A stretch of DNA of 64,000 nt from Kitasatospora xanthocidica (GTDB lineage: Bacteria; Actinomycetota; Actinomycetes; Streptomycetales; Streptomycetaceae). The notes below the pieces were generated by a model that did no database searches, was not told where the DNA came from, and saw nothing but the letters and a program-made list of their open reading frames with translations. Position 1 is the stretch's first letter; the number at the start of each line of letters is the position of its first letter. The DNA is taken from the NCBI RefSeq assembly GCF_014656195.1, contig NZ_BNBY01000009.1, positions 62,001 to 126,000 on the forward strand, written 5' to 3'. Positions 7,209-41,690 of this stretch are shown piece by piece. The position numbers were made by a program, and so were the translations under genes.

Positions 7209-7919
7209 CTAGGCCAGTCCCGCCGCCTCGGCGAGGACGGCGGCCGTGCGGCGCCCGGCCGCCACGGTGCCGGCGTCGGTCGCGGGCACGCAGCGTCGGG
7301 CCTCGGGGCTGTAGCGGGTCATCACCACGCCCGCGTGGTCGGTGGGGAGTTCGAGTACGGCGGCGGCCGGTACGGCGTCGCCCAGCTCGCGGGTGTGCTC
7401 GACGTCCACGATGTCGTCGGCCGTGCCGTGCACCAGCCAGAGCGGGACGGGGGAGGGACTCGCCGCCAGGTGGTCGAGCGGGGCGTCGCCGGTGGTGACG
7501 GCCGGGTCGGCGTAGCGCGAGGCGATGCCGACGGCGGCGGTGGGCCGGAGTTCGGCGGGCGTGCTCGGGTGGGTGGCCACCGCGACGGCCTCCCGGCCGC
7601 CCCAGGACCAGCCGGCCAGTACGAAACGGGCCGGGTCCCCGCCGAACCCGGAGGCGATGCGGCGTGCCGTGGCGAGGGAGGCGAACAGCTCGGCGGCGCC
7701 GCCGTCCGCCCCCTGCGGGTCGAAGTCCGGGACGAGCACCAGCAGTCCCAGCCCGGCGGCCTCCTGGGCCAACGGCCGCAGCACATCCCGCTCGTCCGCC
7801 CCGCTGCCGTGCCACAACAGGACGACCGGAGCCGGCCCACCGGCAGCGCCGACCGGCCGGTGGACGTCCAGAAAACGACCGTCGGTATACGGAACGACCT
7901 CGGGTTCAGGGCGGGTCAT
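7209..7919 (-). CDS. Alpha/beta hydrolase (dienelactone hydrolase-like)
   Basis: A 236-residue cytosolic alpha/beta hydrolase. The nucleophile elbow is G-W-S-W-G-G with Ser105, the acid is Asp169 in HGTADD, and the histidine is His195 in TDHAGV, giving a full Ser-Asp-His triad; the LLWHGSGADE stretch at 35-43 forms the oxyanion hole. Substrate unknown (ester or lactone). Start at ATG 7919, not the upstream ATG at 7952, because GGAGG stands at the right distance before it. A small RNA gene starts divergently just upstream (promoter at 7958-7966). Confidence 0.85.
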   Translation of the reverse strand: MTRPEPEVVPYTDGRFLDVHRPVGAAGGPAPVVLLWHGSGADERDVLRPLAQEAAGLGLLVLVPDFDPQGADGGAAELFASLATARRIASGFGGDPARFVLAGWSWGGREAVAVATHPSTPAELRPTAAVGIASRYADPAVTTGDAPLDHLAASPSPVPLWLVHGTADDIVDVEHTRELGDAVPAAAVLELPTDHAGVVMTRYSPEARRCVPATDAGTVAAGRRTAAVLAEAAGLA

Positions 7920-7957
7920 ACGGGGTTCGCCTCCGATTCGGTGACTGATCACTGAAC

Positions 7958-7966
7958 TGGTACTGT
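7958..7966 (+). promoter_or_regulatory. Extended -10 promoter of small RNA copy 1
   Basis: TGG followed by TACTGT: a TGn-extended -10 element. The same TGn-TACTGT stands before the second copy (41516-41524), at an identical distance from the first base of RNA similarity. No good -35 hexamer is seen. Confidence 0.6.
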
Positions 7967-7973
7967 ACTTCTT

Positions 7974-8120
7974 GTCGCGAGGGAGATGATTCCTCGTCAG
8001 GCGTCAGCGGTGCTACCAGAGCACGTCCTACTTTCAGTAGGAAGAGTCCGTGCGATCCGGGCCTGGCGCTCTACTGTCGGACAGGGTCCGGTGCCTTTCA
8101 CAGGTGCCGGGCCCTGTTCG
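7974..8120 (+). ncRNA. Putative small RNA, copy 1 of a two-member family
   Basis: About 147 bases from the inferred start to the end of a strong terminator hairpin. The core 7998-8071 is 70/74 identical to 41573-41646. Elements in order: a 5' hairpin (CGAGG 7978-7982 with CCTCG 7992-7996), a 31-base invariant block (7998-8028), a hairpin TCCTAC-TTTCA-GTAGGA (8026-8042) enclosed by GCACG/CGTGC (8021-8025 with 8049-8053), an outer CAGGC/GCCTG pairing (7998-8002 with 8061-8065), then the terminator. In copy 2 the two hairpins carry paired base changes. It lies between two minus-strand genes and its terminator is antisense to the last codons of the aldo-keto reductase. Function unknown; a trans-acting regulatory RNA is the simplest guess. 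Confidence 0.7.
8078..8120. terminator. Terminator of small RNA copy 1
   Basis: A 19-bp stem (8078-8096 with 8102-8120, including a few G-U pairs) and loop TTCAC. It overlaps the stop codon and last seven codons of the minus-strand aldo-keto reductase, so it may also stop that transcript. Confidence 0.8.
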
Positions 8121-40308: not shown

Positions 40309-40458
40309 GCCGACAGCCGTCGGCCCGGGGCGCTGCCCAGGTGCGCCGAACCCCGTGGTGCCGAATCTCGGGGCGCCGAATCTCGGGCGTCGCAGGCCCC
40401 GGGCCCGAACCCCTGACCGGGGGAATGGCCGCGCGTCCGGTGGGCGTTGTCCACCCAC

Positions 40459-41466
40459 GTGATCAGCGCTACGCCCACCGTCAGGCTCTCCGTGCTCGAC
40501 CGCTCCCGTACCCGGCAGGGGGAGGAGCCGGCCCGGGCGCTGCGGGACACGGTGGACTTCGCCCGTGAGGCCGAGCGGCTCGGGTACCACCGGTTCTGGG
40601 TCTCCGAGCACCACGGGGTGCCGGGGGTGGCCGGTTCGGCGCCCACCGTGCTCGCCGCGGCGGTGGCATCGGCCACCTCGCGGATCCGGGTCGGCACCGG
40701 CGGGGTGATGCTGCCCAACCACCGGCCGATGGTGGTGGCCGAGCAGTTCGGGGTGCTCGCGGCGCTCTTCCCGGGCCGCATCGACATGGGCCTCGGCCGG
40801 TCGGTCGGGTTCACCGACGGTGTCCGGCGGGCGCTCGGGCGGGAGAAGGACGCGGCGGACGACTTCGGCGCCCAGCTTGCCGAGCTGCTCGGCTACTTCG
40901 ACGGCTCGCAGGACGCGCACCGCGGGGTCCACGCCCGTCCGGCCGAGGGCCTGCACGTGCCGGCCTTCGTCCTGGCCACCGGCGCGGGCGCCGACCTGGC
41001 CGCCGACGCCGGCCTGCCCCTGGTCATCGCGGCCGCCCGCGGCGAGGAGCGGATGCTCGCGGCGATCGACCGCTACCGCGCCCGCTTCCGCCCCTCGGCG
41101 CAGGCCGCCGAGCCGTACGTGGTGGTCTCGGGGACGGTCGCGGTCGCCGACACCGCCGAGCAGGCCCAGGAACTGCTCGTCCCGGAGGCCTGGTCCGGCG
41201 CCTACTCCCGCACCCACGGCGAGTTCCCGCCGCTGGCCCCTGTCGCCGAGATCCACGCCCGGTCGATGACCGAGCGGGAGCGGGCCGCGTACGAGGCCTC
41301 GCTCAAGGGCCACATCGCGGGCACCCCGGAGCGGGCGGCCGCCGAGCTGACCGCGCTGGTGGAGCGCAGCGGTGCGGACGAGTTCCTGGTCACCACCAGC
41401 ACCTACGACCGCACCGCTCTTCTCGACTCCTACCGGCTGCTCGCCGAGGCGGTCGGCCAGGCCTGA
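40459..41466 (+). CDS. LLM-class flavin-dependent oxidoreductase (luciferase-like)
   Basis: A 335-residue bacterial luciferase-like flavoenzyme of the MsnO8 type. Signature segments: VRLSVLDRSRTRQGEEPARALRDTVDFAREAERLGYHRFWVSEHH, then IRVGTGGVMLPNHRPMVVAEQFGVLAALFPGRIDMGLGRSVG, and C-terminal FLVTTSTYDRTALLDSYRLLAEAV. It uses reduced FMN and oxygen on an unknown substrate. I prefer GTG 40459, since the family begins close to VRLSVLD; a TTG at 40447 is in frame too. A hairpin terminator follows. Confidence 0.87.
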   Translation: MISATPTVRLSVLDRSRTRQGEEPARALRDTVDFAREAERLGYHRFWVSEHHGVPGVAGSAPTVLAAAVASATSRIRVGTGGVMLPNHRPMVVAEQFGVLAALFPGRIDMGLGRSVGFTDGVRRALGREKDAADDFGAQLAELLGYFDGSQDAHRGVHARPAEGLHVPAFVLATGAGADLAADAGLPLVIAAARGEERMLAAIDRYRARFRPSAQAAEPYVVVSGTVAVADTAEQAQELLVPEAWSGAYSRTHGEFPPLAPVAEIHARSMTERERAAYEASLKGHIAGTPERAAAELTALVERSGADEFLVTTSTYDRTALLDSYRLLAEAVGQA

Positions 41467-41515: not shown

Positions 41516-41524
41516 TGCTACTGT
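41516..41524 (+). promoter_or_regulatory. Extended -10 promoter of small RNA copy 2
   Basis: TGC then TACTGT, matching TGG-TACTGT before copy 1; in both cases the first conserved RNA base (GTCG) is 8 bases after the last T. Confidence 0.6.
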
Positions 41525-41531
41525 TCATTCC

Positions 41532-41690
41532 GTCGAGAGGAAATGATCTTCCGAAACGGAGATCTTCTCGAGCAGGCGTCAGCGGTGCTACCAGAGCACG
41601 TCCCACTTTCAGTGGGAAGAGTCCGTGCAACCCGGGCCTGGCGCTCCACCCGAAGGGGCTCGTTCCGTCCAACGGAACGGGCCCCTTCGT
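41532..41690 (+). ncRNA. Putative small RNA, copy 2 of a two-member family
   Basis: About 159 bases. The 5' hairpin is longer than in copy 1: TCGAGA (41533-41538) pairs with TCTCGA (41566-41571) and encloses a second stem, GATCT/AGATC. The core 41573-41646 matches copy 1 in 70 of 74 bases. The internal hairpin is TCCCAC-TTTCA-GTGGGA (41601-41617) where copy 1 has TCCTAC/GTAGGA, a compensatory change; CGAGA/TCTCG versus CGAGG/CCTCG is another. It ends in its own terminator with a sequence unrelated to that of copy 1. It lies between terminator of the LLM gene and the Roadblock operon. An ATG-started frame exists within it but has rare codons and no stop before the terminator. Confidence 0.7.
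41651..41689 (+). terminator. Terminator of small RNA copy 2
   Basis: A 17-bp stem (41651-41667 with 41673-41689, one wobble pair) and loop TCCAA. One of the strongest hairpins in the window. Confidence 0.85.

Follow-up and report, generated by a model that had tools for sequence, protein, structure and literature searches.

Our analyses have identified, within a window of 64,000 nucleotides of Kitasatospora xanthocidica DNA (the window being the whole stretch that was analysed), two gene copies whose shared core almost certainly represents a tRNA gene family and not a switch-like regulatory RNA. The family is a non-canonical tRNA that seems to be new, and a literature search that had subscription journals mostly outside its scope returned no paper describing this tRNA family with anticodon UUC. 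In the reading that we prefer, to which we assign a probability of about 0.5, both loci are single-gene units for a non-canonical charged tRNA that would serve mainly as an aminoacyl donor in a side reaction; that its main use lies outside ordinary elongation is put forward tentatively, at a little short of even odds.

The original prediction had described two related loci that share 70 of 74 bases, carry the same extended -10 element at the same spacing and end in different strong hairpins, and all of these observations were borne out. The identity of 70/74 bases was recomputed for positions 7998-8071 versus 41573-41646, the extended -10 element reads TGGTACTGT at 7958-7966 (copy 1) and TGCTACTGT at 41516-41524 (copy 2), in both cases 7 nt upstream of GTCG, and a different terminator-like hairpin lies 3' of each core (8079-8119 versus 41651-41689). 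The features of the two loci and of their immediate surroundings are as follows:

7209..7952, minus strand: divergent neighbour gene of copy 1 (fam0), hydrolase-like by eye, no Pfam match (context)
7958..7966, plus strand: copy 1 extended -10 promoter-like element, TGG-TACTGT (from sequence)
7977..7997, plus strand: copy 1 leader hairpin, 3' of the predicted start (GTCG, 7974) and 5' of the tRNA body (seen when the whole transcript is folded to minimum energy)
8001..8073, plus strand: copy 1 tRNA body (covariance model match of 103.5 bits; fold; pair counts in 39 distinct sequences)
8079..8119, plus strand: copy 1 terminator-like hairpin (fold)
40447..41466, plus strand: luciferase-like monooxygenase gene upstream of copy 2 (fam25; PF00296) (context)
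41516..41524, plus strand: copy 2 extended -10 promoter-like element, TGC-TACTGT (from sequence)
41533..41571, plus strand: copy 2 leader hairpin, of the longer type (fold; leader comparison)
41576..41648, plus strand: copy 2 tRNA body with anticodon UUC, U73 and an encoded CCA (covariance model match of 103.8 bits; cloverleaf minimum-energy fold)
41651..41689, plus strand: copy 2 terminator-like hairpin (fold)

The body of copy 1 comprises an acceptor stem, a D-arm (with A18), the anticodon UUC, a variable loop of 3 nt, a T-arm (with G55) and U73, and its 3' end is CUA, not CCA. In copy 2 the corresponding parts are the acceptor stem GCGTCAG/CTGGCGC, the D-arm GTGC-TACCAGA-GCAC, the anticodon arm TCCCA-CTTTCAG-TGGGA (UUC), the variable loop AGA and the T-arm GTCCG-TGCAACC-CGGGC, followed by U73 and CCA. 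Two sets of differences between the copies that had been predicted to keep structure do so, and both can now be placed: TCCTAC/GTAGGA versus TCCCAC/GTGGGA is the anticodon stem and CGAGG/CCTCG versus CGAGA/TCTCG the leader hairpin. The same layout is seen elsewhere in the family, viz. the degenerate pattern TGNTANNNT upstream of all 105 distinct copies with 90-nt flanks and, in 99/105 of them, a stem of 10 bp or more within the next 70 nt downstream, the six copies lacking such a stem being two of G026 and four of type B. Since the leaders and hairpins are, by eye, far more variable than the tRNA body, selection seems to act on the body.

Folding favours the tRNA form throughout. All 21 cloverleaf pairs are present in the minimum-energy fold of 36 of the 37 distinct 73-nt cores (a count that leaves out two distinct 72-nt cores) and of both full window transcripts, in which the tRNA body sits between the leader hairpin and the terminator-like hairpin; the only core that folds otherwise is that of the C25 copy. 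It had been proposed that part of the core can pair in two exclusive ways and thereby act as a conformational switch. Both pairings can be drawn, but minimum-energy folding gives the cloverleaf, and one of them is the D-arm of the tRNA. Folding thus lends no support to a conformational-switch sRNA or riboswitch with two competing conserved folds. The broader proposal of a regulatory RNA family survives in so far as this is a family of RNA genes with structure-keeping changes, promoter-like elements, hairpins and further copies; for a regulatory role there is no evidence.

Further copies in the genome had likewise been expected, and its 9.27 Mb contain eight that span the core in full length (E at most 2.5e-10), the identity over the part matched being 91-100% for seven of them and 79% for the other. 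They are part of a set of 15 matches at E <= 1, of which the other seven are short (E 0.066 to 0.8) and were taken as chance. A covariance model, as the original prediction had advised, was built from the eight copies. Of the 70 genomes of the genus that were searched, 30 had matches at a threshold of E <= 1e-3, 130 in total, with 1-8 copies per positive genome that are often arranged in tandem. One locus (G036; L079:7282-7987) holds a four-copy tandem array with a 211-bp period and a -10-like element and hairpin at each copy. The 24 genomes whose full GlyRS scores are lowest (<= 268.2 bits) all carry copies, and so does G041, in which GlyRS is fragmentary; the other five positive genomes are G006, with one copy, and G015, G017, G052 and G064, with four each. 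The RNA-positive genomes of low GlyRS score look like a clade.

Comparative evidence comes from an alignment in which 95 sources, some containing the same place twice, were given to the covariance model and yielded 133 matches, or 39 distinct sequences once such duplicates are removed. In the distinct sequences 817/817 helix cells are paired, and sliding the partners by 1-3 columns leaves 27-50% paired. Double changes affect 5 pairs and 26 cells, and 0/500 shuffles were as high on either measure; further pair types are not above chance, the observed number being reached by 500/500 shuffles of these 39 sequences. The pairing score is favoured by the fact that the alignment was fitted to the structure of the model, but positions 18 and 55 are not a pair in that model, and their joint change is, like the ARAGORN calls given below, independent of the fitting: A18 occurs with G55 in 31 and G18 with U55 in 8 of the 39 distinct sequences, and no mixture is seen. 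Hence the U55 of the T-loop (T-psi-C) is absent in 31/39 sequences, where G55 always accompanies A18, and both window copies have G55. The two 72-nt cores, both with GG and UUC, have their columns 18-19 read one position off. All 39 distinct sequences carry the anticodon loop CUUUCAG, a CCA end is found in 124/133 rows, and the helix lengths, U33, U73 and the 7-nt anticodon loop are tRNA-like.

Standard tools recover only a part of this family. According to the original prediction a match to a known Rfam family would remove novelty, and this applies to one part of the family and not to another: the window copies stay below the Rfam gathering score and give no tRNA match at E <= 5, whereas the eighth copy of the same genome (L008) matches RF00005 (tRNA) with 43.1 bits against a cut-off of 29. 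ARAGORN calls L008 tRNA-Glu(ttc) and makes the same call at a U55 copy in each of the 12 scanned loci that hold one (L008 and 11 further loci); among the loci scanned it calls none of the A18/G55 copies, which are the commoner form, and misses both window copies. At L085:1507-2112 it reports a permuted tmRNA (tag APTGRRPGAG), which is probably a false call. A tRNA search of the same genome left the eighth copy unlisted despite its 43.1 bits, and absence from that search therefore means little.

The two halves of the molecule carry different identity signals. The bacterial tRNA-Gly acceptor determinants are U73, G1-C72, C2-G71 and G3-C70 (PMC9976931), and all four are present in 39/39 distinct sequences. 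In the anticodon the glycine feature C36 is also present, and U35 replaces the C35 of glycine in 39/39; C35 being a main glycine determinant, GlyRS may charge this tRNA poorly. The Glu anticodon features U34, U35 and C36 together with A37 are found in 39/39, U11-A24 also fits Glu, and the Glu features U2-A71 and U13-G22 are missing. Judged from these positions, the acceptor end is of Gly type and the anticodon of Glu type, and we consider it somewhat more probable than not that this mismatch is functionally meaningful. A further signal lies in the T-stem, where the family has G49-C65 and C51-G63 (U51 in 2/39 distinct sequences). The strong EF-Tu pairs G49-U65 and G51-C63 are replaced in three Staphylococcus aureus tRNA-Gly that are thought to serve the cell wall (PMC4052509), and such tRNAs are well charged and poorly bound by EF-Tu (PMC8007984). 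Both strong pairs are present in three tRNA-Gly types read from the Kitasatospora genome itself and neither is found in the UUC family, which may bind EF-Tu weakly, as read from the T-stem pair types only.

The side-reaction reading joins these features as follows. The transcript would start near GTCG, RNase P would cut it before G1 and the 3' tail would be trimmed, after which the tRNA would be charged, either with Gly by way of its acceptor or with Glu by way of its anticodon. Because its T-stem lacks the two pairs that hold EF-Tu and its U55 is usually G, most of the tRNA would escape ordinary elongation and would donate its aminoacyl group in a side reaction, by analogy with the unusual Staphylococcus tRNA-Gly that serves the cell wall in this way. 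Several observations count against such a role. An anticodon conserved so strictly would make more sense in a tRNA that decodes or whose anticodon a synthetase recognises, U35 may impair charging by GlyRS, no neighbour gene is common to the dispersed copies, and no synthetase or transferase that was tested lies near the copies or tracks them. This last result, like the GlyRS and codon comparisons given below, speaks equally against mistranslation. The sample for these partner tests consisted of 30 RNA-positive and 40 RNA-negative genomes. GlyRS was matched in 70/70 genomes (with 4-5 matching pieces in some, among the matches listed, so that a second locus may be present), FemAB in 70/70, so that its presence cannot discriminate, Lant_dehydr_N in 66/70 and T-box RNA in 70/70, all T-box matches being below the curated cut-off; second full copies of GluRS occur in both positive and negative genomes. 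In G066 a second GluRS-like gene (G066:C3:291042-292423) is seemingly in two pieces, and a second full GluRS is present in several other genomes.

The main rival, which we regard as unlikely, is that of a dual-identity mistranslating tRNA which, charged with Gly by way of its acceptor end, would decode GAA/GAG so that Gly takes the place of Glu, at a rate that is low or depends on conditions. Such a tRNA would account for the Gly acceptor determinants and the Glu anticodon, both invariant, for the retention of U33 and A37 and for the nearest relatives having the Gly anticodon UCC, and tRNA-ProX provides a precedent in Streptomyces and Kitasatospora (PMC11415595). It is weakened by the missing C35, by the likely cost of a high gene dosage, and by the distance to the synthetase genes, since among the listed places, compared by eye, none of GlyRS or GluRS shares a contig with a copy at less than 150 kb, many of the contigs being short. 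GlyRS itself differs at eight positions between 10 RNA-positive and 6 RNA-negative genomes (sequences L214-L224 of multi-copy genomes versus L228-L233), in a comparison that leaves out G041 (mis-predicted) and G006 and that retains no fixed difference when both are included. All eight positions lie in residues 113-189 (own numbering) and none in the anticodon-binding end, and the two RNA-bearing type-B genomes and G006 keep the RNA-negative state at nearly all of them, so that the differences fail to track the RNA there; they probably reflect clade history. The GlyRS reading frame of G041 (L222) seems to be broken, with fragments only, perhaps owing to an assembly error. Codon usage is likewise unshifted: in each of the 20 genomes sampled GAA is the rare one of the Glu codons, and the fraction that it makes up is no smaller in genomes with the RNA than in those lacking it (0.139 versus 0.125, p = 0.21, 10 + 10 genomes).

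It is less credible that these genes encode an ordinary additional tRNA-Glu(UUC), charged by GluRS and decoding GAA, whose oddities arose by neutral drift. The anticodon UUC, A37, U11-A24 and the tRNA-Glu calls of ARAGORN for the U55 copies agree with this; however, at least one canonical tRNA-Glu(UUC) and three tRNA-Glu(CUC), all without an encoded CCA, are already present in the genome besides canonical tRNA-Gly genes, and GAA is rare. The identity of the family to these tRNA-Glu(CUC) is 0.58-0.61, within the range of the other tRNAs, and to canonical tRNAs of the same genome it is at most 0.62 (20 compared, best six shown). The family being no closer to tRNA-Glu than to other tRNAs, a duplicate of canonical tRNA-Glu was rejected as its source, and drift would hardly produce an unmixed 18-55 switch together with a fixed acceptor end.

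About as improbable, and if anything slightly more so, is an uncharged regulatory or decoy RNA (a T-box ligand, a synthetase sponge or an sRNA) that is merely tRNA-like. Single-gene units with hairpins do resemble sRNA genes, ARAGORN misses the common form, and a pseudo-tRNA of Bacillus cereus offers a precedent (PMC3399842). On the other side, CCA and the acceptor stem are strongly conserved although a decoy could dispense with them, no switch fold was found, and the T-box matches, all below the curated cut-off, occur in 70/70 genomes regardless of the RNA. That the copies are a selfish or dead repeat, i.e. a short functionless sequence copied around the chromosome, can be practically dismissed, for although they are alike over at most about 245 bp, lie in different places in different species and are often in tandem, their 39 distinct cores are paired in 100% of the cells and keep one anticodon loop unchanged, the promoter pattern (105/105) and downstream stem (99/105) accompany them, and 24/24 low-GlyRS-score genomes and G041 carry them.

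The genomic places of the copies were compared with the aid of a crude gene-calling script. A fam0 gene is the immediate neighbour of a copy in 12/16 fetched genomes, and in 7/16 a copy has a gene of fam1 or fam25 next to it, from which copies 1 and 2 of the window look like old fixed sites; in G066 and G007, too, a copy has a fam25 gene immediately upstream. The other copies of the same genome lie in places that are not common to the rest, save for a few locus pairs with shared neighbours, and no neighbour gene is common to all dispersed copies. The likeness between copies does not extend beyond the stretch of about 245 bp around the gene, and in a search for an empty site, made for the C3 copy only, the flank homology stops before the gene and no clean empty site was found. 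A regulator-like and tautomerase-like gene pair (by eye) stands upstream of a copy in two species, in opposite orientation (L099:10116-12265 and L115:2312-4432).

Relatives of the family were found beyond the genus. In a family-wide search of 345 genomes at E <= 1e-4, 65 genomes were matched, 30 of the genus and 35 outside it, the matches outside scoring 53-67 bits where listed (covariance model R1); all twenty relative loci that were fetched (L123-L142) were called tRNA-Gly(UCC), and further tRNA-Gly(UCC)-like relatives are among L258-L283. With a joint model, 125 of 394 genomes of the class pass E 1e-6, many of these matches being other tRNAs of lower score, and scores above 75 bits outside the genome itself occur only in genus g10, taken as Streptomyces, two genomes of which (G112 and G124) have 4-5 relative copies each. 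When both branches are aligned, 557/557 cells are paired and 72 cells show double changes (0/500 shuffles); the number of pairs with double changes is reached by 39/500 shuffles and that of further pair types by 251/500. The mean identity between the UUC family and the tRNA-Gly(UCC)-like relatives is 0.68-0.69, versus at most 0.62 to canonical tRNAs, and on this comparison of sequences the genes form a tRNA lineage of their own that comprises a UCC and a UUC anticodon branch. The tRNA-Gly(UCC)-like genes, which occur in Streptomyces-type genomes and in a second genus of the family, share with the present genes the acceptor ends GCG...CGCU, a nearby hairpin and -10-like element (in those printed, by eye) and, in many cases, U-G-C in the T-loop, whereas they differ in their anticodon (UCC in place of UUC), a shorter D-arm, a common A51-U63 in the T-stem and a CCA that is often unencoded.

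Several individual relatives deserve mention. At L280:1057-1131 and 1215-1289 (G177, Streptomyces-type) there are tandem tRNA-Gly(UCC)-like genes, missed by ARAGORN and adjoining a normal tRNA-Gly(GCC), whose T-loop is seemingly GUGC in place of GTTC; GUGC is the T-loop of the staphylococcal non-proteinogenic tRNA-Gly. BLAST searches with these genes found them in G177 and in 0/8 Kitasatospora-type genomes, and matches that score like them are present in many Streptomyces-type genomes (judged from the scores, not individually). A tRNA-Gly(UCC) relative with the T-loop UGCAAG lies at L193:520-593 on a 100-kb putative viral contig (IMG/VR). A phage or plasmid origin of the family was considered and rejected, as the core has no phage or plasmid match; one relative matched a phage tRNA-Gly weakly (76%).

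These results describe a multi-copy tRNA family in an antibiotic-producing genus that a standard tRNA finder mostly misses, whose halves point to different amino acids and whose elbow shows a clean tertiary covariation between positions 18 and 55. Such a tRNA may feed a side reaction or alter the reading of the genetic code. Charging with Gly would place it next to tRNA-ProX as a second natural family of dual-identity tRNAs, and exclusion from the ribosome would make it an example of how a tRNA can be set aside by the cell for side chemistry. Taken in its most specific form, the proposal is of a dedicated multi-copy Kitasatospora tRNA, with a Gly acceptor, a Glu anticodon and an A18-G55 elbow in place of G18-psi55, that acts as a programmed Glu-to-Gly misreader or as a non-ribosomal adaptor and belongs to a barely noticed UCC/UUC lineage common in Streptomyces; we offer this as a possibility somewhat less probable than its converse. 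That the lineage is common is suggested by the Streptomyces relatives.

Three known systems provide points of comparison. The first is tRNA-ProX (tRNA-ProA/N/T with ProRSx), a mistranslating tRNA (PMC10365949) of Streptomyces and Kitasatospora that brings Pro to codons for Ala, Asn or Thr and is unusual in having A15-A48 (PMC11415595). As in the present family, the acceptor of one amino acid is combined with the anticodon of another, and A15-A48 is seemingly present in 35/39 distinct sequences, with a numbering made uncertain by the 3-nt variable loop. In contrast, tRNA-ProX has a Pro body, A33, A34 and a co-encoded ProRSx, whereas the UUC family has U33, U34, U73, C72 and a Gly-type acceptor, and a search for a ProRSx-like partner, covering GlyRS and GluRS within 150 kb on the same contig (genes beside the non-window copies being unannotated), listed none. 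The second system, the non-proteinogenic tRNA-Gly(UCC) of S. aureus, resembles the family in its altered D- and T-loops, the loss of the strong EF-Tu pairs and the presence of several copies (PMC4052509, PMC8007984); it differs in that positions 18-19 are changed to UU or CU, whereas in the UUC family G18 becomes A in 31/39 distinct sequences, together with G55, G19 is kept and the anticodon is UUC. The third, tRNA-Other of Bacillus cereus, is a tRNA-like RNA thought to act outside translation, as is proposed here, but it lies within a larger RNA, whereas in the present family a promoter-like element and a hairpin directly flank the tRNA (PMC3399842).
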